From assembly GCF_019059575.1 (NCBI RefSeq), contig NW_024883026.1, positions 1-64,000 on the forward strand: DNA of 64,000 nucleotides, in the 5' to 3' direction. This document shows positions 747 to 57,948 of the stretch, piece after piece. Both the position numbers and the translations under genes were made by a program. Within the stretch, counting starts at the first letter, position 1, and the number at the start of each line of letters is the position of its first letter. Under the pieces are notes generated by a model. The model was not told the DNA's origin and searched no databases. It saw only the letters and a list, made by a program, of their open reading frames with translations. The stretch comes from Amphibalanus amphitrite. Lineage: Eukaryota; Arthropoda; Thecostraca; Balanomorpha; Balanidae.

Positions 747-3700
747 CTCCAGTACAGAGAGCGGCAGCTGCTCCTGAAGCTGCGTCAGCTCAAACTCGGG
801 CTGCAGCCGCGCCAGTCTGCCCTCCAGCTCATTGCCCTGCCGGCCGGCCAGCGCACACAGCTTCGCCAGACTCAGATAGGTCTTCTTCCTGTGGTACGAG
901 AACGACAGAAACGAGTGGGTGGGTGCTGGTCAAATAAGGACCCCACGCCATCCAGCGCCATAGCATTAACCGCACCACAAACCATCTCCATCCAATATTG
1001 ATCGAGTAGCTGTGGCTCGGTACTTCGTTCCAAGCGTTGCAATAAAGCGCTCAAAGACGTGGAACATAATTAAAGACATGAATTCCAACGCGTTGTTCTT
1101 GAGCAAATCTGGCAAAACATTTTTCTTTGAGTGTTCCCTTCGCTTCTCACCGCGTCCTACCCCACCAGCTCCCGTGTGGCGACCTTGCGAGGTCCATTTC
1201 CACCGTCCACCCATCCGGCGGCTCACCTGGTGAGGAACTCCGTCTCCGACGTGGCACACTGCTCCAGTGTATCCCCCGCCTGTCCATACCGCCCGGCCTC
1301 CAGCTCATTCAGCCAGCGCAGGCCGCGGTACTCCTGTAGGAAGCCGGCGAGCTCGGCACGGCGACACTGGCTGAGCAGCTGTCCGCGCCGGCCCTGGTCC
1401 AGGTACCAGTTGAACAGGAAGTCGGCGAAACCCTGCCCACGGAGGACATATCAGTCAGCGGGGTCACCGGTACGGGTCGGCGGGCGACATATTAGTGAGC
1501 TGGGTCAATTATGGTACAGTCAAGTCATAGCGATAAATTACAAAATATAACGGTAAACAGAAACAGCATGGCGAGTGCAACCTGACTGGGACGCTAAAAA
1601 CTATTTAGTTACGATAAGTTAGGTCTAGCCATGCGGATGAAGTTGTACGGTACAGATGCATTAACGCCGACGACCAGCGTCTCTCTCCCTCCTCTCTCCG
1701 TACCTTGTCGGCGAACTGTGTCAGGTACTTGTTACGCCGCTCGGTGCTGTTGGTCTTCTCACAGACCTCCACCAGGATACGGAAGTCGAGGTACTTCTCG
1801 GCCAGACTGGTGGCACGCTCGTACTCCTCAGCCTCCACTGAAACGGGACGGGCGGGAAATTTGGGGACTTACAGTGCAGACGGGGCAAACGGTAGTATGA
1901 CCCCAGTCCCAACGCAATTGAAAATTGCAAATATCAAACCAGTTACAAACTTCCCTTCGCTGACCTAAATAAAAATCTAGAACAAAGGACCAAAAATAAA
2001 TCTAATTTCAATATCGATTGTCTTGACACGATCAAAATTCATCATAGAAATCTTTTCACACTTCCGTAAACCATCCGCAACAGTCAACACCCTGCACTTC
2101 ACCGCAGTCCAACACGCACTTCACCGCAGTCCATCACCGTTTCAGACATCATTATTCCTCTTCAATCCAAGTCCAGGCCCTCCATCCTACTCCACCCTAG
2201 TTCCCCTCCCCCCGCTGCTTACATAGCGGATGGATCAACTGGTAGCGGTCCTTTTCAAACTCCGCCTCCACCGCCGCATACCGCTCGACGCCGCGCAGAC
2301 TCTCCAGCTGAACGGTGTAGCCGGAGAGCAGCAGGTCAGCCAGCTCCAGCAGCTGCCGGGTCGGGTCAGGTCAGATCAGGTCAGAATGGATGATGTACCC
2401 GGAAAGCAGCAGGTCAGCCAGCTCCAGCAGCTGCCGGGTCAGGTCAGGTCAGGTCAGGTCAGGTCAACTGAACGGTGTACCCGGAGAGCAGCAGGTCAGC
2501 CAGCTCCAGCAGCTGCCGGGTCAGGTCAGGTCAGTTGAGTGTAGCCGGAGAGCAGCAGGTCAGCCAGCTCCAGCAGCTGGCGGGTCAGGTCAGGTCAGTT
2601 GAGTGTAGCCGGAGAGCAGCAGGTCAGCCAGCTCCAGCAGCTAGCGGGTCAGGTCAGGTCAGGTCAGTGTAGCCGGACAGCAGCAGGTCAGTCAGCTCCA
2701 GCAGCTGGCGGGTCAGATCAGGTCAGTTGGGTGTAGCCCGACAGCGACAGGTCAGTCAGCTCCAGCAGCTGCCGGGTCAGGTTAGGTCAGTCGAGTGTAC
2801 CCGGAGAGCAGCAGGTCAGCCAGCTCCAGCAGCTGGCGGGTTAGGTCAGGTCAGGTCAGGTCAGGTCAACTGAACGGCGTACCCGGAGAGCAGCAGGTCA
2901 GCCAGCTCCAGCAGCTACCGGGTCAGGTCAGGTCAGGTCAGTGTAGCCGGACAGCAGCAGGTCAGCCAGCTCCAGCAGCTGGCGGGTCAGGTCAGGTCAA
3001 TGTAAGAATAGGGTGTTACACTTGCATTGTGAAACAAAACGTCTTCAAGTTTTTCACTTCGTCTCTCGTTCCCGATTCATATCAGTCATCGATAACCATG
3101 ATAGCTCCACTGCCCCTTTGTTTATCCTTACCAACATTCTCCCTTCCTTTTCCAGCTATTTCCCTCATCCTGTCCAGCTTATAAAATACTGGTCCTGGTG
3201 AAGCCTGGCCTGTGTCTCCCCTGACCTGCTGGTAGAGGCTGGTCCGTGTCGCGCCCGTCTCCGTGTTGGGCAGCGCCTGTTTGAGTGTGATCTGGTACTG
3301 ACGGTGAAGCAGCTCGCGGGCCGGACCGGCCGTGCCCCAGGGCTGCCGCTCGCGGCACTGCTGCTGCTGGGGCCACTCAGATCCCTCCTCCCCGGTGGTG
3401 GGGGTCTGTTCAGGGGTTAGGTCGGCCGCCGCCGCCGACACAGACGTCAGCATCCGCTGAGGGCGGAGGAAGAAGGCGCCCGTCATTACTGGTTAAGGTC
3501 GGTTGCCTTTTGGGGCAGCAGTCAAGGTCAATGGACAGTGAAGTCAGTGATCAACGAGGTCAGTGCTAACAGGGTGACTTGCTGGTGTATTCCCATAACT
3601 TAATATCAGAGGCCTCACTTATCTCGCCTTTGAATGGTTATTCGAGCAGCCAGACGCGACTGTGCGGCGCCCGGCCCGTTCCACTCACCACCAGTATGGT

Positions 3701-6700
3701 GTTTGTGTCCGAGGTCAGCTGCACCAGGTCGCGCGGCGGAGCGCCCGTGGCCAGCAGCTCCTCCTGGAGGCCGACCAGCGCACCGATAATATCGTCCACG
3801 GCCGACAGGTGGCGGAAGAAGACGTCCTGCGCCGTGAGCGGGTGCTGCGGCACCTCGCCGCGCTCCTCGACCACGCGGGTGACGGCGTCGTCGACCACCT
3901 GACCCAGTCTGGCGAGTGGCGGGTCACAGGTCAAACACAGGTCAAACATTACCACCTGATTCAGCCTGGCAGGTCGAAGGTCAAACACAGATCACAGAAA
4001 AGAGTCATCGAACAGTTGACCCAACCCAATGTCTCAAATAGTTCACATGCCATAAGCGCATTGTGCAGGTCAAACACAGGCCACAGAAAGACCAACGTCA
4101 CGTCCAATGCCTGACGTCCTAGCCTAATGTCATAGACTGGTCACTTGATAGGCACGAAGCAAGGCGACGTCCACCATGAGTCACCTGCAGTACCAGTCCA
4201 TACTAAGCCCCGTCAGCTATCGCCGTCCCCTACTCACTGTGCCGACTGGTTGGTGAGCGCCATGGCGGCCAGGATCTTCTCGTGGTGCTCACGCAGCACC
4301 TGAGTGGTGGCCACCGCCGAATCCTCGCGACTGATACCCGTCAGCTGCGGAGGGACAGACGTCAGCAGTTGTTTCAGACGGCAAGGAAAACAAGCGGCAG
4401 ACGGCACTCACCACGAACAATCATGGCCCCGGTCTACCAGAGTTTAAACAATAATCATTAGTGAGAATGTCATTATGGTAAGCGCAGTAGCTCCTCAGAC
4501 AACACATTGCGGTTTGTTTCTCCCGGCCTATCCGTCGTCGATCGCCCGACGAGTATACCCTTTCAGGACCCCCGAGTCCATTCTTCATTCAAAGAAGCAA
4601 TCATCCGAACAACAATGGCAGTTGGCACCGACAGCAGCTCTAAAAAAAACTAAATGCACTGACGTCACCACCGTTGCAACAGATCCATCGCATTTCTCTC
4701 ACCCGGTCCCAGAGTCCGACGGCCCGGAGGAAGGCCAGGTAGAGCTGGTGCGCCTCCCGCTTGTCGCCGAGCTGATTTAGCAGGATCAGAGAGTTGGTCG
4801 TCGACACGGTGGCATCTGTAAGACGGTGCAGAGCGAGACGGATGTCAACGCTTGGAGGAAATGATTGACACGGTAGTTAACGCTTACCGAGTGAGAGAGC
4901 AAACGCGTAGAACAAATAAATCTAGATAATTTGTGACTGCATTACATACTGCGTTCCTCCCAGATTTATTCCTGTAACACCATTCCAGAGTAACACAAAA
5001 AAGTGATTTTGCACGAAACCCACGCTTCGTCCCATCCCCATCCCTTTCCACTGTCATACCACCCTGCCACGCTGCAGTTTTACTGACCGTGCGGCATGGC
5101 CTCAGCCCAGCGCGGGTCGGACGCCGGGTAGTCGTTGATGACGTCCGCGCTCAGGTCGGCCACCGTTTTATCCAGCTGTGAGTCGAACCCGTCGGCCGAC
5201 CGGCGCGGAAACAGCTCCTCCACCAATTCTGCGCAGCGCGTCTGGAGAGAGGGACGTGTCGTGGGGTCAGACAATCACAGGCTAGCGACCGAACTGCGCT
5301 GGGGTAATGAAGCGGCGGCTGCTCTTGGGCCATTGTAGTTTATTGGAGCGTTAGGGCGCGCCAACTACTGGGGTCATTTTGCGCCCATTGCTCTTGGGCC
5401 GGTGCAAAGTGGTAGCGAAACCAAAGCTGTGCTCGCTGCAATAGACGTTGTTTAGAATCGAGCAGCGGGCAGCTTAAAAAGAACTTAGATTATCACCAAC
5501 AGTTCCTATAACCAACATCAGCTGAGCCCAGCATGAAATTACATCGTTGTTGCCAATTGCAAACGTTTCTGACCAAGGTTTCTGGGCTACCAAATCCATC
5601 AAACGCACATCGCACTGTTCGATCCCAGCTGTCCTTCTCCTGCCCTCATTAGTCAATCACTGCCCCTAATCTCTCCCCATTCCCACCACCCCTCACCAGC
5701 TCGTTCCGGCAGTAGAGGATGCAGGCGGCGCGGAGCCGCGCCTTGGGACCGCCCGAGGTCAGCTCATCCACGTCTGCCTGAGTCATGGACACGTTCAGAG
5801 ACTGGTTCAGCCGGCTCTGGTCCATGGTCAACATCGAGCCGGGGACGCTGAAACGGGGAGGGGCGGAGGGTCACGTGTTATACAGCAGCCTCGCATGTAA
5901 GCGATTCCACTAAGAACGTATGATGTACCAACGAATGTACGCCAACATTTATCAAATGTATTTCAGATGGAGCGTAATTCTTATATTGCTTACGCGATAA
6001 AAATACGACTCAAACGAAACGCATTTTACAAAAGGTGTCATTAGACATTGCTAGAAAGCAAAAATGTCACACGGTAGCAAAATAAAACGATAATCTGTAA
6101 GACCGCTGATCTCTCTCAACATACGTGGTGCTGGTATCGGCGACGGTGGTGGCGCCGCAGGGGGCGCGCGCGTTCAGCCTCAGCAGGCCGTGGTGGCTGG
6201 TGAAGACCAGCGGGGCAGAGTCGGCGCCCAGACCCCATCCGAGCACCTGGTCGGACGGGGACGACAGACGCAGCGTCTCGGCCGGCTCTGAGGGACACGA
6301 CACTGCCGAAGGGAGTGGCGGTCATTAGGAGATAGAGGACAGTGTTGTAACGGGAGGGCATCAATAGACAGGATGGATGGATAACTGACGGATGTCGACC
6401 GAACACAGTTACTGTCACATGTGTGAAAACGACACATCGCCGCTGATATCTCGCGGTTGACAAAGATTGAAGACACCGGGACACCGGTTAGCAAAGGTTG
6501 ACGCAGACGATCTGACACCGGCCACACAATGTTTGCGTATATAATACAGCGCCGATCACTCACGGTTGACGCAGATGATCTGACGCCGCAGCTGGATGTA
6601 GGCCCGCTCGCCGGGGGGGGGGGGGAGGGGGCAGCAGGAGGTAACTCACGGTTGACGCAGAGGATCTGACGCCGCAGCTGGATGTAGGCCCGCTCGCCGG

Positions 6701-9700
6701 GGGCCAGCAGGCGGAGCTCAGTGCCGGCGCACTGTTCGACCGGCAGCGTGTACTGGACGACGTCGAACCGGGACCACTGGCGCGGCAGACGGTCCACGCT
6801 GTCCTCCAGCACACCTACGAACAAGGCACAGAGAGGGTGTGAAGACGATGTCGGGTCATCACCTCACAACTCATTTTGCGAAAGCCACTTATCACCGTGG
6901 CCATATTCATCGATTGAAGACTTCGAAAACGGAAAAAAACCTGATCTGCCTACTCATCTGTGGCTAAAATAAGGTTGTCGCATACCTACATATCTGGATT
7001 TTGTATACCAGCAACCTAAGCTAAGAGCATCCCTTGCCAGCAGTACGGTACGGGGATAGGTATGGCTGAAAAACGTTGACAACTTGGGACAAACTCCGGA
7101 ACTTCCGACCAGTCCCAGCCTAATCGGGCACGTTCGGGAAATCCCAACAAATTTCGGACTTGGCTAGTCAGTAGCTGCGACAATTTTGAGACTTCCAGTC
7201 CCGCACATCTCGATTAGTGTGGAAAACAGTTGGGCCGCGGGACTTTGCTGCTAGTCTGTCTAAAAAATGAGAGAAGTTTTCAATCGTTATCAATTCCAAA
7301 TGATTTATCCATTTCTTGCAAAACTGCATGTATGACCCTGCCCTCTACCCTCCGATCGCGCAATTCCGGGTGTTCACGGGCACCGCACACTGCTGCGTGC
7401 GGTGTGTGCGGTGCGTCCAGCAGGCGTGGGGGTAGGGGATGGGTAGGCGGCTCTGACGTCACGGCTGCGTGCGGTGGACGGTCCGCTGTGGCCAGTCCCG
7501 ACCGGCCACAGCGTTCGCTGTGTGCGGTGACGGAAGGCTGACGTAGGGACGCAGTGGGCGGAGCTTGGAGGCTGTGTGCGGTCCGACCGCACACAGGGCC
7601 CGTGAACAGCCCTCCGGTTCTGTGGCAGAATTTGGAGTCCAAAGTTTAACGTGCGCACATAGCCGCGCACGGCCGGTCCCCTCGCTGACTTCGCCTGGCT
7701 ACGGCCTGCCACCAACCGCAACCATGCCCGTCAGGAGCCAGGAGGCCCATAAATGTCAAGCACCCGTCGCGCTTCGAGCCCGGACTGATAAAACCAGGAA
7801 CACTTGCTCTCACCATGCGAAGTCCCACGCTCTGCCCTACCGACTGAGCTACGGGACCGGCAATATAATTGTTTCAATATAATTGTTTTTTCAATTATAT
7901 TTTCAATATAATTGTTATAATTGTTTTAAAGCTCATCTAATTCTAATAAGTGTTTCGTTTCAGCAATTAGCATATACGTGATACGACATCTTCCAGCCCT
8001 ATGTTTCGGTCAAATAACAATAGCTAGAGAATTTAGCTGAACTATAGTATCTAGGGACTTTTTTGAAATTTCTCCGTATTACGAGCGCTTCCATTCAATT
8101 TCGTAGCATCTGCGCAACAATCGCAACACAACACTTATTTGCTTTGTGGATTGCACAGGTTGGTGCGTTTTTCTAATATTTGTGTTAAAGTGTGCTCAGA
8201 TCAGTTTATTGTATTTTCAGGAAGAATATACGATTGAAAAGAACAAGTGAGTTAGTTACTTATCCTGTATCTTTTCATCATAAATGGATGGAAATATTCC
8301 ACCACAAATACCAAGCTTTTCATTTTGTAATTTTCATGTATTCAAATTTTGTTCTGCATGTTTTTCAAAGTCCATGAAGTTAAATTAATCAATTTAAACA
8401 ACACTTGACACTTTGATCAACTATTCTTTTTGCCTGTTATGGGCTAAAAATGTTCTGTATTATCAATGTGTTTGTGTTCAGACAGGAGTAGAACAATGTT
8501 TTCATGAATAAGTCATGATATACCATTCCTCACAGGAAAACAGTTGCCTGAACTTATAGACTGTTTTATCAACATTTCATACCGACTGAGTGACAGCTTG
8601 TCTGGTGGCCCTGCCCGTATCAAAACCCAGAGGCGGATCCAGCTCAGAGGTTTGGGGGGGGGGGGAAAACCATAAAAATTTATCGATTCTTTCCATGCAT
8701 CGTCCATAGGCGCAATGTTAAAATCATGCCGTTTGGGGGGGGGCAAATGCCCATTTTGCCCCCCTGGATCCGCCACTGTCAAAACCAGATACATTAAATT
8801 GCATTAGTAATAATGGCACATCCTAATGTCTCAGTCAACTATTACCTTGTAAGAGGCAGAACATCATTTTCTAGTTGACTGTAACTACCCTGATATACAC
8901 ATCAGATGGTTTGGCAACTATTTTAATTGTTGAGCATAATTTAGGAAGTGCCAAACATCAACTTTGGTCCTATCGCAGTTTTGGGTGTGTACCTAATTCA
9001 ATCAGCATGCTGTTGGTTGGCACTCCGTTAAATGGAAATTACATACTGAGGTTTCTGTCTCATTTATGAACAGCACAGTTCATATGCTTTTCACTAAATA
9101 GGAAAAATGCCAACAATTTGGCAGTGGTGATAATTAAACATCCACTAACAATGTTTCAGTCACATGTTAGGTACATCTGAAAAAAATACTTCCATTGCAT
9201 CCCATAATTTTGTTGACCCATATTTTTTGTAATTTTGTTAGTTCATGGCATATCTCAAACAGTGCTCAGCTAGAGTTTTAAAAGTTTAAGCTGTCATAAC
9301 TGCAATGAAAATGAAACTTCCACCACAAAGAAATATCTTACCAAATACCATGGTTGAGATAACACTCATCTTTTACCTCATCCATGATCGAACCCAGTGC
9401 AAGATACTTCTACACAAAATTTTAAGAGGGAGAGATGTTTTCTGGACCTTTTACAAATGCATCAGTTCACTATTTCTATCTTGGAGACTTTCAATCATGG
9501 TATTTATTGCAGCCTCTGATATGCGGTTCGATGATGGCCTCTAAAAATGCTTTTGTCGCCCACAGTCCCCATCATGGCTACCAACCACCGAGAGGCCATT
9601 CAAATGCAGATCCAGCAGGACTGGGCCAACCGCGAGTACATCGAGGTCATCACCAACAGCATCAAGAAGACGGCCGAGTTCCTCAACTCGTTCGACCTCA

Positions 9701-12700
9701 GCTGCAAGTCGCGGCTGGCCATCCTCAACGAGAAGCTGACCAAGCTGGAGCGGAAGATAGACTATCTGGAGGCGCGCGTGACCAAGGGAGAAACGCTCAA
9801 CTAGTGGTGACTGTAGTGTGGGACTCACGGTGATTAGAACACTGAGACACACTGGAAACTCGCGTCGCGCGTGGTGTCTGAACATGGTGCGGTCCCATGG
9901 AACGTCCACTGAAGTAGTCGTCTCTGGCAGACTTCTGTACGGCCCGGAACGACTGAACTATCAGAGTACCTGCTGCTAGTGGCTGAACCCGAGTGAATAT
10001 TAGTTTTCCAAGCGCAATTGGGTACAATTGCGCTTGGAAAACAATGACGTGCTACTTGCCGGATGCATTTATCGCAGCCCCTCAGGCGACCCCCATCGAA
10101 GTGTTGATGATTTGTCTTGCTTACTCCAAAATGCGATTTCTCTCAAGCACACTCACCTGCTCATTGTTGGGGATTTTAACATTCCTCAGATTGACTGGGA
10201 AAACAACTTTTGCAGCGCATCTGAAGCACATTTTGCCAACAAGTTTTTGTCTGCCGTTCAGGATGCATTCCTGTTCCAGCATGTCACCAAGCCTACCAGA
10301 TTTAGAGAGGGTTGTAGGCCTAGTATACTGGATTTGGTGTTTACAAATGATGAGAATATGATAACAAAGATCAAATATTGTCCTGGACTAGGAAGGAGTG
10401 ATCATGTGCTACTGAAATGCGATATTGCCTGTTACAACAAAAAATGTTCTTCTGCCGGCTTGAAATGGAATTTTCACCGCGCTGACTTCACGGCCTTGCG
10501 TGTAAAACTACATGCAGTTGACTGGAGCTGTTTGTCAACCATGAGTGTAGACGCGGGTTACAAGTGGTTTAGGAGCAAACTTGAATCGCTGATGAGTGAG
10601 TGCATACCCAAAGCAAGGAGCGTCAAGTCTAAAAAGAACGTTTACATGAATAGCCGTTCACTAAACCTCAAGAAGAAGAAGAAGGTACTGTGGTCAGTGT
10701 ACATGAGAACGCAAGACCCGATCGACTATAGCAGATACAAGATTTGTAGAAATAAGCTTAGGACATTGACTCGCCAGTTAAGGAAAGATTTTGAAGCTAA
10801 GATATCAGCAAACATGAAAGTAAACCCGAAGGCTTTTTGGAAATATGTGAACAGCCGCCGTAAAGTTAAATCAAGTATTGGTGATCTAAGAAACGACCAG
10901 GGCCAGCTTGTTAGCGAGGAAAAAGAGAAGGCCTCGCTCCTGAATGACGTCTTCTCAGGCGCATTCACTATTGAAAAAACGGATGTCGTGCCACAACTAG
11001 CAAACCGTTACACAGGGCCGCCGCTGATCGATATACCAGTCAACCTTTTCACGGTGATGGAAAAGCTTAAAGCACTGAACCCCAATAGTGCCCCAGGAGC
11101 TGATGACATTCACCCCCGCGTTTTAAGGGAGTTGAGTGGTCCTCTCTCCCTTCCCTTGACATTACTGTTCCGAAAATCGCTTGAAACTGGGTCTATTCCT
11201 GCAGACTGGAAGCACGGTAAAGTCATACCCATCTTTAAGAAAGGTGAAAAGGAAGACCCAAGAAACTATAGACCTGTCAGCCTCACATCTGTTCCCTGTA
11301 AGATTCTTGAGTCGCTCATCCGTGATTGTTTAATGGACCATTTGCTGTCAAATGACCTGCTGTCCAAGGACCAACATGGCTTCCGCCCGAAGCGATCTTG
11401 TGACACGCAACTGCTTGACTCTATAGACTCATGGAGCCGCCTGTTGGAGGACAAGACGGAGGTCGAAGTGATTTACCTTGACTTCCGAAAGGCGTTCGAC
11501 TCCGTCCCACACAAGAGACTGATAGGCAAGCTGCGCTGTTATGGTATTGGTGACCGAGTGTTGTCTTGGATTGAATCATTCCTGGAAGGCAGAATGCAGC
11601 AAGTGTCCCTATATGGAAACCTGTCAGACCTGGTCCCTGTGCGCAGTGGTGTGCCCCAAGGCTCAGTGTTGGGCCCATTGCTCTTCTTGCTTTATGTCAA
11701 TGACTTGCCAGATGCTGTCACTTCAAATGTGCGAATGTTCGCGGATGACACAAAGCTGTTCTCAGGCATCTCTTCTGAACATGATGTACGGACATTGCAG
11801 GCAGACCTGAACGCCCTCGTGGAATGGTCTAGAACTTGGCAGCTGCCATTTAACGAGAATAAGTGCAAAGTGCTTCATGTTGGTGCAGCCAAGGACCGCC
11901 ACTCATTTCAAATGGGGTCGGACAGACTGACAAACACGTCAGTCGAGAGAGACCTGGGTGTGCAGGTCGACTCAATCTTGAAGTTTCGACAGCAAGCGTC
12001 TACGGCGGTCTTCAAAGCGTCTCAAGTTCTTGCGGTCATCCGCCGGTCCTTCGCCTTTTTAGATGAATTTACCCTGCCTCTTCTTTTCAAATCTCTCGTG
12101 CGGCCTCACCTGGAGTTCAGCAGTCTTGTTTGGGGTCCGTTCAATAGAGCTGATCAGAAGGCAGTCGAAAGGGTCCAAAGAAGAGCCACCCGGTTAGTGG
12201 TGAGCATCCGCCACCTTCCATATCCTGAAAGGCTGAAGAGACTGAAGCTCCCGTCACTGTATTATCGGCGTAGACGCATGGATATGATTCACGCATACAA
12301 GATGCTGCACGGCCACGTTGATACTGATCCTTCAGAGCTTCTGGCAACGAATCCTGAAAGGCGAACTCGGGGTCACACACTTAAACTACGGAAGCCTCGT
12401 GCAACCTGTCGTGCCAGACTGAATTCATTTTCTGTACGGTGTATTAACGATTGGAACGGGCTTCCAGCAGAAATTGTACATTCGCCCTCAGTCAACGTCT
12501 TTAAGAACAGGCTGGATGCGCACTGGGAGTCGATCTGGTACTCCACTCCTGTAACAGACTGAGTACTAAGTGAAGTTATGGAAATCGGCGAGAACGGGCC
12601 CTACAGGACATCGTGCCTCTTGTCCCGATAACACGAAGATGAAGATGAAGATGAAGATGAATATCGATGCCCGCTCTTGAGCCATGTGCTTCTTGATATG

Positions 12701-15700
12701 TGGTGAAGTAAGGGATGACTGTATACTGTGTCCAAAGGACGTTAGCCAGCGCATTATTGAAACGGTCAAACCAAGGTGAAGCCATTATCTCCCGACCAGA
12801 GATTCTCGGTCGAGCGCTTCCAATGCCATTTCTGTTTTAATATTTACATCGACTGCAAAGAAGAAGGCCATACACTTGAAGAACTTTGTCGCTTAGTTAG
12901 TATAGAAGCAACAACCAGTCGACAAACTTTGCTTTATGCCGCATGCGACCGATCAATCCTCATGTTGCTTGTGTGGCCACCATGTACAAGATGTTTTGTT
13001 TTGTAAAGAAACAATGACGTAGACTACAATACATAGATACGTCAGCATGTCGTTGAAATTATCATGGGAGGATGATAATGAAATTTCATCTTGGGCTTTT
13101 ACCTGACTATGAGTGTAATACTCAGTGAAATGGCCAGGTCTGCTAGCAGACCTTATGAGGTAATGTCTGCTTTAATAGGCCGGAAAGTGAGGTGATGATT
13201 TTGTGCACTGGCCCATTTCACGGTGTGCACAGGACACAATCGAATCATGGTGTCCTGTCGTAACACCTTAGCCTTTTCGCACAGTAACGTAAAAATCGCA
13301 TCAGCTGTACCAGTAACTTTGCAAAAAGAAGTCCAGCAGAATAACGAATACGACCGTGCCGTGCTGTGTGGGGAAGAAGTACCGCTTTGGCACATCGCCT
13401 TACCTATGGCGAATACGGCCGTGCCGGGCTGAGTGGGACTCAGTGCGGTGGCCAGAACCACGATGCCGACGTTGGTCACCCACAGGTCCCGCAGGGTCAC
13501 CTCCAGTTCCTCGCTGGCTGTGTCGGCACTCTGCGGAAACGAAAAGCTCATATCGATGAACAAATAGATGAACAGCAATAGCTTACATTCAATAGCTCTG
13601 GGGAGCTTTCAATATTCAGACATTACACACAAAACAAAACCTGCCGTTCCTTTACGGATTAACTCCGCGTGCCTCCGCGGCCTATTTGCTTACCCAGAGG
13701 TGCTGAACGAAAGCGTCACGCGCCAGCCGCTCCACGTCGAGCTGCGAGTCCATGTGCTCGGCGTCGGCCACCCACCAGCGCTGCAGGTGGCGCGCTGTCA
13801 TCACGTACACCGTGTGACCGATACAGTCCGGCTCCTCCGGCGCCGCCGCTCGCAGTGAAACCAGCGGCTGGAGAGAGGGGGGCAGGGTATCAGATGGTGT
13901 GCGACATGGTCGCTAGTGAGAACCGATAGTTTGCTCATGAAAATGGCAATGCGTTCATAAATGATTTTCATACGAGAATGAAGGATGGAGAAATATTCAA
14001 ATAGCATTTGTTATTCCTAGTTAAAAAAAGCACAATCTTGTGTCCAAGACTTGTGGTGTTCTCAATTTGTGGTGAATCAAGCATATTCAGCTGCACAGTT
14101 CCTCGTTATCAATGCAGTATGCAAGACCAATACAGGGTAACTATCTAACGCCGACGAAGCCCGCCCCAATCACCGTGGGTCCCCCTGCGCTCCCGTCCGT
14201 CTGTCCGTCTCCAGTCCTCACCTCCTCAGCTCCGGCGGTCTGCATGGCTCCCCAGATGAGCGAGGAGACGCGCCGGCCGATGCCGCCCAGCAGGCCGGCC
14301 GGCGGGGCCAGGCGACGGCAGCCCAGCGCGCCGCCCGGCCACGAGACAAGCACCAGCGTGGACGTGGTGGTGGCCAGCAGGCAGCTCGAGTCGCCCAGAC
14401 AGATCAGACGCTCACACTCCTGGCCCTGGACACGCGGGGGGGGGGGGGCGTGGGGTCAAAAGTTGGCATCTTCGCATGTATGAAGCGTCACAGGACGCCC
14501 GCAACAAAGCACTGTCCGATTTTAGAGATCCGTCATAGTCCAGAGATTGGACCAATCTAATCCAACATCGTTGCGCGTGATTCGTTCACACTAACAGCGA
14601 TTACTTGAACGCAAAATCCCACACTACCAAATCGTGTTCCTGAAGCATCCCCATTACCGTACCTGCAGGTCAGCGTTGCTTTCAGTGCTGGAGCTCTCAT
14701 AGATGACGCTGGGCCAGAAGCGCAGCGTGCCCTCGGGGGACACTGCCAGACAACTGGGCACGTGCACCTCGGAGCCGCCGAGCACCTGGCGGCGCGCACA
14801 GGGAGCGGTCAGACAGTTACGAAGCATTACTGACTGCCGAACTAACGAGATTACTTTCGAAACGTTAGAAATTAGTGACATTGACGACTACCAACTGATG
14901 TACCAGGTGTAAAACTAAAAGCCCTTTCTGCATTCCCATGAAATTAGTCTCTAATTGTTGCAAGTATATGCCTAATATCAAAGAACGATTCAACGACCAC
15001 TCCATCGTACCTACGTCAGAGTACGGAGTCCCTCCCGGGAGCCCGCCACACGCCCCTTTTGTAGCGACTTCGCACGGTGCAACAGGTCAATGTGTGACGA
15101 GCCGAGATCCCTCCCCGCTGTTGTAGAATCCGGCGGCGTCTTACCTGTACCAGCTCAGCGCGGTGCGCCAGGTCACTGGGCGGCAGGGTGAGCTCGCGAC
15201 ACAGCGCCAGGCGGCGAGAGGCCGCCTCCGAGCTGGACTGGGCATAGCGCCAGACGAACAGGCGGCGGCCGCACACCAGCCACGCCCAGCCGCGCTCCGA
15301 CACCTGCACCGATACCTCGCCAGATCCTGGGGAAAGGATACAAGAGCTATGACACCTGGACTTATACATAACACCATGCGAACAGGAGTCAAAGATAACA
15401 GGCTGAAATGCATACCACATCTAATATGACTCACAGGAACACATGCATCTCAATCAACTGTGATAAAGCTGTGACAGCCACATTCTGTAAAATAGAACAG
15501 GGAATTTAAAAGCAGGCCAATGCTGTTATTTCTCCTGTTGATTGAAAGCAACATAATAACCTTTCATTCTGGCTATTTTTCAATATTCAGTAAAATTTCA
15601 ACTTGTTTATACTCTTTTCAGTCATTGTAACACCCACATTTACTAGCATTAAAACTTACTCTCAGATGAAGACAGCACTTCAGTGACCAGCACTGGAAGG

Positions 15701-16736
15701 GGAGACCCCAATGACTCCAAAGAGTATTCTTGAGTCTCTTCAATGATCCTTGAAGTATGCAGACCAGCCCCAGGACTGTAACAGAGAAATGTTGAATGAA
15801 AAATGAGAGAATGAGAGAAATGAGAAATGAGAAATGTTGAATGAGAATGAGAGAAATGAGAAATGTAACAGGAAGTCATTGGGAGACCCCAATGACTCCA
15901 AAGAGTATTCTTGAGTCTCTTCAATGATCCTTGAAGTATGCAGACCAGCCCCTGGACTGTAACAGAGAAATGTTGAATGAAAAATGAGAGAATGAGAGAA
16001 ATGAGAAATGAGAAATGTTGAGTGAGAATGAGAGAAATGAGAAATGTAACAGGAAGCTTCAAAGAAAAAATATGTTAAAATGAAAAACAATACAAAATAA
16101 TTCACAAGAAAAATCTTCAACATCCAGGTTTAGATAGCTAAGGATAAAACACTGTAGAGCAAACATTGGTATTTTATGAGGTATCAATATATATGATGTT
16201 GCTGTAGTCTGATCCATGCCAAGCTTGCAGCCAAAGTGCCCTGCTGAAAGCAGGGGGTACTTTCTGTACATACAGCTTTTACACTCAGATACGCAAATTA
16301 TTGAATGGAGGAACTAACTGCCGAAGGAACTCCAACCTCAACCTTGACATGGAACGGAATATAATTGCTGTATTAAGGTATTCACTGACATCTCAAGGTG
16401 CCATTTGGCACCAACATCTTTAAGTCACGTCCTACCTAAGGTAGGTAGGCACCTTAACAATATCTCTGCAGCAGGCAACTAGGTTGTGGGTGCAAACATG
16501 TTGAAATGCACCATAAATGCAGAATACTGAAAACAATCTTTACATTACAAGTAACAACCGTTTATTAGTGCAGTGTCGGAAAAATAATTACTGAATTAAA
16601 CCTACCTTGCAGAAAATGATGAGCTGAGCAATCCACGTGATTTTATGGCAGATTTTGACTTAGTTGCAGACGTTCTCGGAGATCCTCTGGCAGAAAATGA
16701 TTCCCGAGAAATTGCGTTGACTTGTGGAGTATACAT
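747..16736 (-). CDS. Nup133: Nuclear pore complex protein Nup133 (19 coding exons, C-terminus beyond window)
   Basis: Scaffold subunit of the Y-shaped Nup107-160 complex of the nuclear pore. Exons in transcript order: 16736-16606, 15775-15660, 15326-15145, 14785-14663, 14425-14222, 13867-13694, 13530-13404, 6814-6650, 6302-6125, 5847-5697, 5241-5088, 4815-4703, 4344-4238, 3908-3689, 3456-3226, 2352-2223, 1837-1704, 1432-1227, 888-747. Every junction has GT-AG borders and the phases join without a stop, giving 996 codons; human Nup133 has about 1,156 residues, so roughly 160 lie left of the window. Recognisable Nup133 stretches are [25 protein letters not shown] (propeller region), [17 protein letters not shown]-type AQDVFFRHL, and SLAEKYLDF with LTQFADK (C-terminal helical region). 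The first ATG in the first coding exon (16734-16736) is taken as the start; in-frame sequence upstream reaches the acceptor at 16757 without a stop. Three exons have neighbouring partial copies, reported separately. Identity is near certain; individual boundaries could be off by a few bases. Confidence 0.95.
2313..3001 (-). repeat. Ten-copy tandem array of a Nup133 exon 5' end plus its acceptor
   Basis: The 16th coding exon begins at 2352 with codons for [13 protein letters not shown] after a CCGGCAG acceptor. The intron upstream of it contains nine further copies of this segment (near 2403, 2485, 2547, 2610, 2676, 2740, 2804, 2886 and 2950). They are separated by runs of TGACC/GGTCA and spaced 62-82 bp apart. 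Most copies keep an AG at the acceptor position (GGCAG or GCCAG), but only the copy at 2313-2352 continues into the rest of the exon (VQLESLRG). Plus-strand frames across the array are by-products of the repeat. Confidence 0.93.
6495..6706 (-). repeat. Tandem partial copies of a Nup133 exon 3' end including its donor
   Basis: The end of the eighth coding exon (codons for [18 protein letters not shown], donor at 6650/6649) is repeated 86 bp further into the intron at 6558-6613 with the same donor sequence (AACC followed by GTGAGT). The copy carries a G/C-run expansion in place of the rest of the exon. A shorter, more diverged third copy lies at 6495-6528. Only the 6650 donor joins the next exon in the correct phase with the full exon upstream. 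Confidence 0.88.
7015..7775. other. Nup133 intron stretch, no gene recognised
   Basis: This part of the large intron has no coding sequence I can support. The segment 7370-7600 is GC-rich and repeats short words such as GTGCGGTG and TGCGTGCGG, so it may be a transposon fragment, but I found no clear termini. Confidence 0.4.
7776..7860 (-). repeat. tRNA-like sequence, probably a SINE head or tRNA pseudogene
   Basis: On the minus strand, starting at 7860, the sequence has a good polymerase III A box (TAGCTCAGTCGG) and a weaker B box (GGCTCGAAGC) about 60 nt later. That spacing is longer than in an ordinary tRNA, and no matching anticodon stem is evident, so I do not call a functional tRNA. A tRNA-derived SINE head fits better. 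Confidence 0.5.
8628..8778. mobile_element. hAT-type MITE with 8-bp target-site duplication
   Basis: A 151-bp element begins CAGAGGCGGATCCAG and ends CTGGATCCGCCACTG, an almost perfect terminal inverted repeat of the CAG..CTG type used by hAT elements. It is flanked on both sides by the 8-bp direct repeat TCAAAACC (8620-8627 and 8779-8786). The interior contains two G-runs and no coding capacity. Confidence 0.88.
9574..9804 (+). CDS. BRK1: BRICK1 / HSPC300, WAVE complex subunit
   Basis: A 76-codon frame encodes the small coiled-coil subunit of the SCAR/WAVE regulatory complex, which links Rac signalling to Arp2/3-driven actin assembly. It contains the family's core almost unchanged: [29 protein letters not shown] and the C-terminal [10 protein letters not shown]. 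The heptad pattern across residues 30-70 fits the coiled coil, and human BRK1 has 75 residues. The start is ATG 9574, eleven bases after an acceptor-like CCCACAG, so an upstream non-coding leader exon is likely; I cannot place it. The gene lies in a Nup133 intron on the opposite strand. A LINE has inserted about 200 bp after its stop codon, probably within or next to its 3' untranslated region. Confidence 0.96.
10001..12664 (+). mobile_element. 5'-truncated non-LTR retrotransposon (CR1/L2/Jockey-like)
   Basis: The element carries a partial endonuclease and a complete-looking reverse transcriptase (next entry) and ends in a (GAAGAT)n tail at 12635-12662, as CR1/L2-like LINEs often do. Its left end is a perfect inverted repeat: 17-nt arms at 10003-10019 and 10026-10042 around a 6-nt loop. 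This suggests an inverted 5' end at the insertion junction. The 7-mer TGAATAT occurs at 9994-10000 and again at 12658-12664 and is a candidate target-site duplication. The insertion lies in a Nup133 intron, sense to BRK1. Confidence 0.9.
10028..12562 (+). CDS. LINE ORF2-like protein: partial endonuclease plus reverse transcriptase
   Basis: An open frame of 844 codons without stops or frameshifts. Residues ~10-130 are the C-terminal half of an apurinic-type endonuclease ([11 protein letters not shown] at 48-51, LDLVFTN, GRSDH). Residues ~340-620 form the reverse transcriptase: [51 protein letters not shown] and the catalytic FADDTKLF near 570. The C-terminal part resembles the connector of CR1/Jockey-group proteins; I see no RNase H. 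The N-terminal half of the endonuclease is missing and the frame has no ATG at its left limit, so this copy is dead on arrival although recently inserted. FADDTKL favours the CR1/L2/Jockey group. Confidence 0.92.
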   Translation: MRLENNDVLLAGCIYRSPSGDPHRSVDDLSCLLQNAISLKHTHLLIVGDFNIPQIDWENNFCSASEAHFANKFLSAVQDAFLFQHVTKPTRFREGCRPSILDLVFTNDENMITKIKYCPGLGRSDHVLLKCDIACYNKKCSSAGLKWNFHRADFTALRVKLHAVDWSCLSTMSVDAGYKWFRSKLESLMSECIPKARSVKSKKNVYMNSRSLNLKKKKKVLWSVYMRTQDPIDYSRYKICRNKLRTLTRQLRKDFEAKISANMKVNPKAFWKYVNSRRKVKSSIGDLRNDQGQLVSEEKEKASLLNDVFSGAFTIEKTDVVPQLANRYTGPPLIDIPVNLFTVMEKLKALNPNSAPGADDIHPRVLRELSGPLSLPLTLLFRKSLETGSIPADWKHGKVIPIFKKGEKEDPRNYRPVSLTSVPCKILESLIRDCLMDHLLSNDLLSKDQHGFRPKRSCDTQLLDSIDSWSRLLEDKTEVEVIYLDFRKAFDSVPHKRLIGKLRCYGIGDRVLSWIESFLEGRMQQVSLYGNLSDLVPVRSGVPQGSVLGPLLFLLYVNDLPDAVTSNVRMFADDTKLFSGISSEHDVRTLQADLNALVEWSRTWQLPFNENKCKVLHVGAAKDRHSFQMGSDRLTNTSVERDLGVQVDSILKFRQQASTAVFKASQVLAVIRRSFAFLDEFTLPLLFKSLVRPHLEFSSLVWGPFNRADQKAVERVQRRATRLVVSIRHLPYPERLKRLKLPSLYYRRRRMDMIHAYKMLHGHVDTDPSELLATNPERRTRGHTLKLRKPRATCRARLNSFSVRCINDWNGLPAEIVHSPSVNVFKNRLDAHWESIWYSTPVTD
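12665..13403. other. Nup133 intron stretch, nothing recognised
   Basis: Between the LINE and the next Nup133 exon I see no coding sequence, inverted repeat or RNA gene that I can support. Confidence 0.4.
15701..16056 (-). repeat. Tandem duplication of Nup133 second coding exon 5' part and upstream intron
   Basis: A ~181-bp unit is present twice, at 15701-15881 and 15882-16056. It contains most of the second coding exon ([19 protein letters not shown]), its TTACAG acceptor and a run of GAGAAATG-type repeats. The left copy continues into the donor at 15660/15659 and is the functional exon. The right copy keeps the acceptor but runs back into intron sequence without an equivalent donor. The two copies differ at only a few positions in the exon part. 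Confidence 0.92.
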
Positions 16737-44825: not shown

Positions 44826-46256
44826 TCGGTTTAAAGGGACCCTCCCACCTTAACATTAGTTTTGAGTTGAGATAGCCAAGTTTGCGGCCAGGCTCAGAAA
44901 CCACCATTTATCCTGGTCGCAACCCCCGCAGCTTTATGGTGTTCAAGAAATTTCTTCCCTTTACTTGCAGGGTGGGACCAGCGTGGTCCCTATCTCTTAA
45001 AGGGACACTCCCACCTTAACATTAGTTTTGAGTTGAGATAGCCAAATTGGTGGCCATGGCCTGCAAATACCGGTTTGGGCACTCACAACATCGACAAATG
45101 CTTTAATTCGGAGATATGGAATTTCAAACTTGCAGTTTTCGGATTCTAAGGGGCTAGTGCATTGGTATGCCCCCTTAGAATTTGTGACGTCAGCGGAGAT
45201 CTAACGATTTTTAAATCTTTTACTAAAACGTTTGGTAGCACGCGGTGGTATATGCGACCCCCACCGGACACGATTTGGTAGCCGAGGTCTGTGACGTCAG
45301 CCGGGCGTGAAGTTTTCCCTTCACCATAGGCCTCACACACAAACCGGCCGAAGTTCATGCCAGGATAGCCCGGCTTGAAAGTGCAAAAATGATTAAATTT
45401 TGCCCTCAATAGATTCATTGCTTCATTTTATAACTAAAAACGTCCGTTATTAGGACTCAATGAAGGTAAAAAGTACTCAAAATCGAAGTTCAAGAAGATG
45501 CTGTCCGAGCACAATCTGGTAACATCACGTGACCTCTTTTAAGCAAAATGTATATAATTTAAGGATGTTATTACACGATTGCTGCCTAAAACATCATAAA
45601 TAATACGCTTGTAACATTTATTGCTTCTGTTTAAGTCATAACATTGCAAAACGCAAAGTTTTTCATGGAAGTCACGTGACCAAAGGTATAGCAGGGGTTG
45701 GGACAAGCACTCAAAGGATTTCAAGTTTTTTAATTAAATTATATAAGTTTCATGATGAAATTGATAGAATGTATTTTTTCCGAATGAAATACAAATTTTC
45801 GTATGTAAAATATTATTCTTATGGGCGAAATTCTCCATATAAGAAATGTCAGTGACGTCACCAGGGCTTTACGTGGGCTTTACTCAAAACATCGGACCTA
45901 CCTGTTTCTTATAGGCATATTTACGTCTGGACAACGAGTTGCGGGGAAAAGTGCTGATTGTGTTGCAGTTTTAGGAGCCGGTGATTAGGCTGGATTTTTT
46001 GGTTACTTTTTCGTACCGATTCATGTATTTCATAGTGTTTGGCTTTTGAATATTTAGTTCTTTCAGATAAATATTACTTGCCTTACAACTTTTGTAAAAA
46101 CGTTTCATTTTTTTATAAGCCGACGTTCAGAGTCCTAAAAATACATCAGCACTACAATCATTGTAAACAAACAAATGGAGCACCACTTGGCTCTGTTCCA
46201 AGGCCATTTTTTAGTTTATCTGGTGGTTTTCTTGCTCTTGTACGTCGTTTTGTTGG

Positions 46257-46684
46257 ATAACGAGGCTTGAAATGATCTCACGCATGTCAAAGTGTTTTTA
46301 TTTTAGGCAAAATAAATATCTAAAACAGTAAAACAAGCTTTCGGCTTGTTTTACTGTTTCATTTCAGTTCATGTTGTTTTCATCAGTACTGTTTCAGTTC
46401 ATGTTGTAGCGTACGTAATGATACATTGTTCTACATTATTTACTTGCCATGTGCAATGTACCACACTATTTGCAACGTATTGCAATACGTTTAAAAAAGT
46501 GAGCTGCTATGAGGATGCCTGGAACAATATGATTGTGCTCTAGCTTTTGAAAATCAAAAACATGTTAATTTATTCAAACTTGATGATGGCGTAATGCCGA
46601 AAGCTTGTTTTACTGTTTTAGATATTTATTTTGCCTAAAATAAAAACACTTTGACATGCGTGAGATCATTTCAAGCCTCGTTAT
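46257..46684. mobile_element. Foldback element with 89-bp perfect inverted arms
   Basis: Arms 46257-46345 and 46596-46684 are reverse complements over 89 bp, starting ATAACGAGGCTTG. The ~250 bp between them has no coding capacity. The word GTTTTGTTGGAT occurs just left of the left arm (46247-46258) and again at 46727-46738, about 40 bp past the right arm; this could be a duplication or chance. Confidence 0.88.
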
Positions 46685-48331
46685 ATTAATAATAATCATG
46701 TCATCCATCCTCGCCCACATAAAAAGTTTTGTTGGATGTTTTGAATCCCTTAAGATTGACTTATATCATAATTAAGAAGCATGTTGATTGAAAACAATCT
46801 GAAGTATCCAGGAGGCTGACAGAGGTCCTGACTACTGAGCAATATCAATATCAAGTTGAACAAGTTATGAAATTTTGGTTGATAAACGCAAGTTGATCGG
46901 GCTCATATATCAGCAAGAAAAGGTAAAATTAAAAGAGCTTATTGTCCAAAAACAAGCTATAATATTGCAGACCTTGGAGCCATACTGAAGAGCACACTGA
47001 GCAGGATCATGCCAGAAAATGTTGACTGATGAGCGCATATTGATGTATTGGTATGAATATTGAATAATAACTTACAACAGCAAGATAAATTAGTGCTAAC
47101 TATCAAGTTAAAATCTAGAATGAATGGACTTGGGCAGTTTTACTATGCTTAGATGCTATGCAGATTGTAATGTGCATCAGGTACTCAGTGTCTGGCAAAT
47201 GAAACATGTGATCATTCCATTGCTACTGGAGGAGAAAGCTTGGATCACTAAATCCACTTTATGTTGATTTTGATGTTAATCATCATCACTGTATTTCTTG
47301 AAAAAAGGATTGTAGTAAAATTGTCAATGTGACAATCCATGCAGCGATGTGATCATATTATGTGTTCATAGTCATTCGTGATAGCCATTATTGGTCCAAT
47401 ATACAATGGCAAAGCTCTCAGTCTCAGTGTTTCTTCCTGTGGATGGCCAGCAGTGACTCCGAGCTTAGAAGTATTAGTTTTCTTCACAGGGCTGGGATAA
47501 AAAGTACTGAGGGTAATCTTCCACCAAGGAACTCTACTTTGACATGGTATGAGATGTAGGCACAAGTAGGTAGGTGCTCAGTTCCTTTCCTATAGTCAGT
47601 AGTTATGTATGTTTAGTTGGGTTAGCTTAGATCAGATTGCTAGTTTTTTAATTTGCCAAATGTCCAGAAAAATGTGACCTGAGCAATGAGCATACCCGAA
47701 CCTGACTAACCTGACAAGTGACAGCTGACCTAACCTCAATCATCACACATATTTGCAGCCTACCCAAGACCTGAGGGTAATCTTCCACCAAGGAACTCTA
47801 CTCACCAAGATGTACTCACCAACAGGTGAGTTAAACCTGCATGGCAGTAGCACCCAGTTATAGGTAGGTACTCACCCTAACTCAATCTTACCTGCTAACC
47901 TTCAACTTGCCAAAAGTTAGCTCACATTGCCAAGCTGTGTCCAGGGAAACAGAATGAGGACAGAGGAACTGGCTCATTGGGTGGCTGGTGTGAGTCTGTG
48001 CATTTTAAGTGTTTCTTCTCTGAAGCTACTCTGCACTGCTGTATGTCATGTTAGATGCTCAGAAAATGTGGGAAATGATTACTAAGCTACTTAAGTGCTT
48101 TATTAATGCTCGAGACATGAACAAGTACAGATCCTGCAGGGTACAGCTATGAGTTAGGTGCTAGGTGAGTATGTTATGTGAATGTGCTGTTCCCTGTTTG
48201 ACCGTAAGTATACAAACAAGCACAGGGTCACAGTTATATTCAATCTCCACATAAACATACAACAAAAACGGCCATATAGCCTAACTCCGAACACACCACA
48301 GATAACTTAAGCCTTTGAAGGCACAAAAATG

Positions 48332-48625
48332 TTTTGATTAACAGGACAGGTTTACAATATATCCTCTGTCCTTGGGGGATCTTGCTGCCAAGTTGAGGTA
48401 TGATGACTGAACTTCAGGATTGATCAACCTTTTCTTAGCCACTGCTTATACATATACGAGAAAGACCAAATGCTTGTTTGTTTTGATTTACAGGACATGT
48501 ATACAATATATCCTCTGTCCTTGGGGGATCTTGCTGCCAAGTTGAGGTACGATGACTGAACTTCAGGATTGATCCACCTTTTCTTAGCCACTGCTTATAA
48601 ACGAGAAAGACCAAATGCTTGTTTG
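48332..48625. repeat. Two-copy tandem duplication, ~149 bp unit
   Basis: Copies at 48332-48480 and 48481-48625 are nearly identical (shared CCTCTGTCCTTGGGGGATCT and GAAAGACCAAATGCTTGTTTG). The second lacks a few bases in the TACATATACG segment. No gene is recognised in or near it. Confidence 0.9.
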
Positions 48626-49909
48626 TAAACTGCGTTGAAAATTTAATGATCCACCTTCAATTCTGACATGAAGGCACAAATGAAATAGTTCCCTCTCCTT
48701 TTGGAATACACAAAGCAAAATATTTAATAAATTTTAGTGGATGGACAAGAGCAATTAGCACAGCTTTCCCTCAAGTTAACTTCTGGCACTGTTGATGAAT
48801 TACACTGACGCTTATTCGCTTCATATTTTGTAACAAACGCGCTAAAACTGCAACATAACAGCACTATATGCTTCTTGACAAAATGCAATAGTATTAAAAA
48901 TTTAGCCCTGATGGCATTCATTCTTGGTGGAAACGTAACTACAAAATATTTTGTAGTAACATTTAAATTCTGGCCGAAAACAGTGCACGGTTTAAAAAAG
49001 AATCATTCCAATGACGGTCCATTCTTGCGGTCCTGAAATCGCCACTATTTCCGGCCTCTCCAACGCAACTCGTTGTCCAGACGTAAATATGCTTCTTATA
49101 GGTATCTTGGGTATATGCTGCTTTGCGCGCAACAAATGCCGCACTTTCAAATAAAGTCGCTAGGAACAGCGGAGATCCCAAAAAGTAAACAAAAGTAAAA
49201 GTCTAATATCTTGAAAACCGTTGAATATTTTTCGATGAAATTTGGTAGATATTCGTTTTTGCTCTTTCTGAACCGAGCGACATCACTTTCATGCCAATTC
49301 ATTAACTTTTTTGAAGGTGGGAGGGTCCCTTTAAGGAAAAATTTTGAGGTCGTAACCGTCGTAACAAAGACGACACTACTTCGTAAAAACATTGATATTG
49401 GTCTCAACATGGTTATTCAAAAATAGTCAGGAAGGAGTAGTCTTTTAGGGTCACCGGAGGTCAGGACGAATTCGAACACGTGGCTAGGTACCTACATATT
49501 GACCAGGGCCCTGTTCGGTCGCTGTTTTTATATCACCGTGCTGTCGGTTTTCCCCATATATTCTTGCTGATGCGGCTTGGCCTCTCATTGGTCTAACGAA
49601 TAGACCACTTGAATTCGAGCAATGAGGAGCCAAGAAGCAGCAGCATGGTCGCAGCCTGCTGATAAATATGCATCAAAAATGTCAGTGTGCGTCCTGGTGC
49701 GTCCACCGTAACTTTGCATGTGCCGAAATCAGCTCACGGTGGTGGCTGATTTTTTTTTGGCGCAGGGCAGCTTCAGAATTAAATTCAGTTGTCTATGCAG
49801 CACACTGATCAATCTAGCAGCAGATTTGCCTTGTTGGCGGCCCTGCAGAAGTTTCGGGACAAGACGTCCCTGCCTCGGTCATCACGTGCTCAAACTGGCG
49901 AGCCACCCC

Positions 49910-57804: not shown

Positions 57805-57948
57805 GGTACCCCGGCTGTGTGAAGGCGTCCTATGATAGCTGTGAACTAGGGCGCCGCTTTAGAAAGTTCTGTCATGGTACCCCGGCTGTGTGAAGGCATA
57901 CTATGATAGCTGTGAACTAGGGCGCCGCTTTAGAAAGTCCTGTCATGG
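57805..57948 (+). repeat. Two-copy tandem duplication, 71-bp unit, in F-box 3' region
   Basis: Copies at 57805-57875 and 57876-57948 differ at very few positions (GGCGTCC versus GGCATAC, TTCTGTC versus TCCTGTC). They lie about 140 bp after the stop codon, probably in the 3' untranslated region. Confidence 0.88.

Follow-up and report, generated by a model that had tools for sequence, protein, structure and literature searches.

The stretch of DNA analyzed here (the window: 64,000 nucleotides, i.e., bases 1-64000 of contig C1529, which measures 143,694 bases in an assembly of 807.55 Mb and 2644 contigs) carries part of the gene for the nucleoporin Nup133 on its minus strand. One intron of this gene holds a tandem array of nine extra copies of the start of the following exon (exon D), each with its splice acceptor (window 2353-3000). 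An earlier note on this DNA had drawn attention to the gene and to the nine copies; both were recovered in the present analysis, the copies as ten in register with the exon itself included. Such an array recalls the 'mirages' of amphioxus, i.e., minisatellite-like duplications of intron-exon boundaries (PMC3087553), and we consider it most likely to be a neutral or nearly neutral mirage of variable length that has the 3′ splice boundary of exon D as its seed.

The Nup133 locus and its repeat array

Five exons (A to E) joined in frame yielded an open segment of 281 residues, which matched Pfam Nucleoporin_C (E 3.8e-21, residues 110-280) and, with phmmer, PDB chains named Nup133. The best of these chains, 3i4r_B (E 4.8e-48, residues 36-277), we take to be human Nup133. 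In addition, upstream exons joined by hand matched the Nup133 chains 5a9q_3 (query 60-217, E 8e-18) and 6lk8_J (query 20-217, E 1.7e-13). The exon junctions flanking the array are open in frame, and since the displayed Nup133 alignment is unbroken across the E-D junction, 2223-2352 is a genuine Nup133 exon. The array occupies the 3′ end of a phase-0 intron of 873 nt. The features of the locus are as follows.

2223-2352, minus strand: exon D, the source exon, 130 nt, donor GTAAGC from 2222 (in frame with its neighbours; Nup133 alignment continuous over E-D)
2353-3225, minus strand: host intron, phase 0, 873 nt (1161 nt in contig C203, described below), donor GTCAGG after exon E
2353-3000, minus strand: mirage-type minisatellite, nine extra units (repeat finding and unit alignment)
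2430-2433, minus strand: the extra acceptor closest to exon D (CAG, 2433-2431), followed by an exon-like start at 2430, in a 78-nt unit
2434-2515, minus strand: 82-nt unit whose 45 exon bases end in GTTCAG and adjoin TTGACC, a junction of the proposed founding type (putative ancestry)
2836-2917, minus strand: second 82-nt unit, identical GTTCAG/TTGACC junction, acceptor TAG
3226-3456, minus strand: exon E, upstream Nup133 exon (in-frame joining)
1704-1837, minus strand: exon C, Nup133 (in-frame joining)
1227-1432, minus strand: exon B, Nup133 (in-frame joining)
747-888, minus strand: exon A, Nup133 (in-frame joining)

Tandem Repeats Finder (TRF) and a repeat finder placed the array at 2308-2999, and the ten in-register copies lie within 2305-3005, with spacings of 78, 82, 64, 64, 64, 64, 64, 82 and 64 nt, in that order. 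The exon-like starts behind the nine extra acceptors are at 2978, 2914, 2832, 2768, 2704, 2640, 2576, 2512 and 2430, and the real exon D starts at 2352. Read on the minus strand, each unit consists of (TGACC)n with a few changes, a short CG-rich stretch closed by the acceptor (CCAG, GCAG, CTAG or GTAG), and a copy of the exon D start. The extra units are 64, 78 or 82 nt long and copy the first 38-45 nt of the exon, i.e., 45 nt in both 82-nt units and about 38 nt in those of 64 nt, so that the composition given for the unit in the earlier note stands, and its single figure of about 40 exon bases gives way to these two lengths. When compared with the first 38 bases of the exon, the copies agree at 33 to 38 positions (perfectly in two of the nine), and 45 of 58 alignment columns around the acceptor are invariant across units. 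Five of the seven single-base changes in complete codons of the exon-like parts are synonymous, a count too small for use, in which two of the seven changes share one codon of one copy and changes at bases 37-38 are excluded.

When 1000 Markov-1 sequences of the array's own composition were generated, none held a copy matching at least 30 of the 38 bases, and nine such copies were observed. This control and the in-register copies ruled out chance or a random satellite, in agreement with the view taken previously. A dispersed repeat family was ruled out as well, since a whole-assembly DNA search, which passes over simple repeats and words of very high frequency and gives scores to the best candidates only, matched the array in C1529 and in a second contig, C203 (with two overlapping matches), only. 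CAG or TAG precedes the exon-like part in all nine extra units, and AG is present in 13/13 units of C203. The pattern used for locating the extra acceptors and the read-through starts itself required AG and the spacing analysis of the repeat finder did not; because the copy number and the contiguous 64-82 nt spacing agree with this AG-independent result, no unit lacking AG was skipped.

As context, TRF was run on 15 sequences (204 kb: the window and 14 10-kb pieces, some of them overlapping or from both versions of the locus). Arrays of period at least 30 were found in 8 of the 15 sequences (15 arrays, counting repeats of the same locus), and the two versions of the Nup133 array scored highest, with 792 and 1254 (next 700). 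The GC content of the fetched assembly pieces was 46-58%.

A second duplicated exon edge was found in the same gene, and it forms part of the support for the mirage reading: positions 6558-6617 are a copy of 6644-6703 (59/60 identical), by which the end of an exon and its donor are repeated in the intron.

6558-6617, minus strand: intronic copy of the exon end, intact donor GTGAGT from 6563 (59/60 identity)
6644-6703, minus strand: exon end with its donor (GTGAGT from 6649), presumed to be the genuine one (frame open to the donor; inside the stretch matched by 6lk8_J, query 20-217)

The copy is placed 86 nt inside the intron and has a C-run at its junction. A 50-base piece of it is unchanged in C203; the surrounding 301-base stretch as a whole is not identical.

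Two assembled versions and the 288-bp length change

Contig C203 carries 13 extra units against nine in the window, i.e., more and not fewer. The window and three 10-kb C1529 pieces were compared with one 20-kb and four 10-kb C203 pieces, which were not picked for full overlap, and matches longer than 400 nt were considered. The matching pieces are collinear, in reversed orientation, with one exception, and their identity is 93.4-99.95% by block. In the window, identity is 96.8% over 2-2999 (spanning the CT repeat and the array), 99.90% at 2.3-7.4 kb, 99.95% at 7.6-11.8 kb, 95.1% at 20.3-22.6 kb, 99.6% at 45.4-45.9 kb and 99.7% at 49.1-58.6 kb; further along C1529 it is 93.8% (100.0-103.3 kb) and 93.4% (104.1-104.8 kb). 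Other matches joined the array to itself out of register (84%), and the out-of-order match, at 54.2-54.8 kb (81.6%), looks like a dispersed repeat. No match longer than 400 nt was found for the C1529 piece at 133.7-143.7 kb nor for the C203 piece at 275-285 kb, which were among the pieces not picked for full overlap. We infer that the two contigs are probably two haplotypes of a polymorphic animal. A 71-bp array at 57805 is equally long in both, so not every minisatellite differs between them.

Some other differences and features were noted along the window. The CT microsatellite (1-724) lies at the extreme contig end and is probably where the assembly stopped. About 243 bp at ~7370-7612 are without counterpart in C203 and have, by eye, inverted ends (GGGTGTTCACGGGC / GCCCGTGAACAGCCC); this segment resembles a small inverted-repeat transposon that is polymorphic. 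About 3 kb at ~45922-49092 lie between blocks that adjoin in C203 and are probably an insertion in the window version. An 852-residue open frame at 10004-12562 (plus strand) resembles by eye a protein of non-LTR (non-long terminal repeat) retrotransposons, and a 181-bp tandem duplication with 98% matches is found at 15700-16056.

The C203 version of the locus equals the window version plus one 288-bp tandem duplication, with 0 mismatches over 3,389 nt. Because C203 is longer by 288 nt, its length allows no offset other than 288. At this offset 41 breakpoints reproduce C203 exactly, all of them located from -2 to +38 relative to the start of the real exon; between -700 and +199 there was no further fitting breakpoint at this offset. 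The range is this narrow since the unit 288 nt upstream equals the exon over 38 bases and differs from it at -3 (TAG vs CAG). The duplicated block comprises four units (64+64+82+78). Hence, the most recent change came about by exchange, slippage or deletion inside the first bases of the exon or the 2 nt preceding them, and the exon's first bases thus participate in exchange with the copies. A duplication leading from the window version to that of C203 and the reverse deletion fit equally. The suggestion that the array was seeded by the exon and changes in length was thus borne out, the two versions differing by one step with its breakpoint at the exon start.

Both 82-nt units hold the longest exon copy, which ends in GTTCAG and is fused to TTGACC, and the intron immediately upstream of the array reads TTACATTGACC. 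The founding step would have been a tandem duplication from the intronic TTGACC to exon base 45 (GTTCAG), giving a unit of about 82 nt. The 64-nt units may then have arisen by loss of CGT and three pentamers, with few substitutions, and blocks of units would have been multiplied by slippage or unequal exchange.

Splicing consequences and alternative explanations

Ten similar acceptors stand in a row, as the earlier note had foreseen, and the exon body and its donor are reached only from the last. By eye, the real acceptor does not surpass its copies. Reading from any extra acceptor on into exon D meets a stop within 20 codons (9/9 in the window, 13/13 in C203), and the TGACC pentamer passes through all frames; these stops rule out that exon D is extended as coding sequence across the array. 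Since only the last acceptor is followed by a full exon with a donor, the array is probably tolerated by splicing. Exon definition would be expected to favour the last acceptor, and transcripts that used an upstream acceptor and read on would, given the stops, probably be degraded.

The same observations could be read as regulation, in which the extra acceptors act as decoys that divert some transcripts to early-stop products, so that copy number tunes the Nup133 level. For such decoys speak the AG kept in all nine acceptors, the stops in all nine read-throughs, and the CTGAC repeats before each acceptor, which resemble branch points in that CTGAC matches the consensus of such sites. When folded as RNA, the array did better than 20/20 shuffles (z -4.8), but a repeat with self-complementary units is expected to fold strongly, and the motif CAGCTGCTGGAGCTG, which is self-complementary and surrounds each acceptor, is perhaps the cause. 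A paper on C. elegans ties intronic minisatellites to splicing decisions (PMC4039745). AG retention, however, is not distinctive when 45 of 58 columns are invariant. Furthermore, amphioxus mirages were reported as regularly spliced (PMC3087553, PMC3902484), which in PMC3087553 is suggested by data on Adh3 and by reverse transcription-polymerase chain reaction of the globins. We therefore regard regulation by decoys as quite unlikely. Equally unlikely, in our judgement, is a wider proposal, by which the array would serve a non-lancelet animal as a system of recombination coupled to the exon, in which the exon start and its intronic copies would exchange sequence, the functional acceptor and first codons would be renewed from the decoys and renew them in turn, and the copy number of an allele would set the amount of Nup133 message lost through use of upstream acceptors.

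Mis-assembly of one or both arrays, with a true copy number that differs, is very unlikely. The extra 288 bp of C203 are an exact duplicate, and the amphioxus draft mis-assembled one mirage (PMC3087553); but the substitutions that distinguish the units recur in the same order in both contigs, and identical non-repeated sequence flanks both arrays. The second contig thus makes an artefact less likely. The weakest alternative, that some units are already short exons through GG/GTAC donor-like sites as a nascent intron gain or source of micro-exons, is highly improbable: a GGC to GGG change yields GGGTAC, a possible weak donor, in four of the nine units and mirages were proposed as a source of introns (PMC3087553), but this change is also an ordinary third-position substitution and an added exon of about 32 nt would shift the frame.

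Several points weigh against a neutral mirage as the explanation. The last acceptor is presumed to be the one used. AG in all nine units could hint at constraint, which is indistinguishable from the general similarity of the units, given the 45 invariant columns. Draft arrays deserve distrust, because one amphioxus mirage was wrongly assembled in a draft genome (PMC3087553). Over the near-identical first 12 kb, both contigs could represent a single haplotype assembled twice, in which case the length difference would be somatic or an assembly error. Finally, the putative founding step is read from two 82-nt units.

Relation to known boundary repeats

The mirage genes described in PMC3087553 include the globins BflGb6 and BflGb9 and Adh3, to which PMC3902484 adds TnC and PGBD5. 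BflGb6 repeats the 3′ end of an intron and the 5′ part of an exon, with 6 vs 3 units in two haplotypes, and BflGb9 duplicates the 3′ boundary of an exon (PMC3087553). Many, though not all, amphioxus mirage units keep their AG/GT signals (PMC3087553, PMC3902484), and somatic instability has been reported for the Adh3 mirage. The Nup133 array shares with these cases a unit that spans the exon-intron boundary, the retained splice signals (AG in every unit of both versions) and the instability in length, with 9 vs 13 units in contigs that we read as haplotypes; the duplication at 6558-6703 is, like that of BflGb9, one of an exon end. The mirage examples considered here come from cephalochordates, the host lineage being no part of the definition. 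A search for the green fluorescent protein (GFP) family PF01353, with amphioxus in mind as the host, gave 0 matches, but so did 14 control genomes. The arrays differ in host gene, in the (TGACC)n pentamer inside the Nup133 unit and in unit size (64-82 nt vs 150-160 bp in BflGb6 and 10-72 bp in Adh3). They also differ in that the length change in Nup133 can be traced to one event located from -2 to +38 relative to the exon start, and in that regular splicing is reported for amphioxus and presumed for Nup133.

A variable number of intronic repeats bearing splice-site copies is also described for the 37-bp repeats of human F7 intron 7 (PMC6627357); these repeat a donor, of which only the most upstream is normally used, whereas in Nup133 it is an acceptor, of which the most downstream is presumably used. 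Human genes within segmental duplications contain internal tandem repeats (PMC2812944), which are similar in that minisatellites may sit at exon-intron boundaries and alter gene structure, but they lie in recent paralogs and half are coding, whereas the Nup133 array is intronic and present in two versions of one locus. Among the matches listed for literature searches naming Nup133 (none mentions Nup133) or arthropods (Dscam only), there was no report of such an array, which does not show that none exists.

Boundary minisatellites are thus already known from lancelets, and what this case provides is a last length change placed at the start of a living exon, with both versions in one assembly. 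In PMC3087553 mirages are proposed as a source of new introns, and the pair of near-identical versions, one with 9 and the other with 13 extra acceptors, offers a natural experiment on whether duplicated acceptors are ignored by the spliceosome. Should the host not be a lancelet, the mirage phenomenon would be wider than the amphioxus examples.
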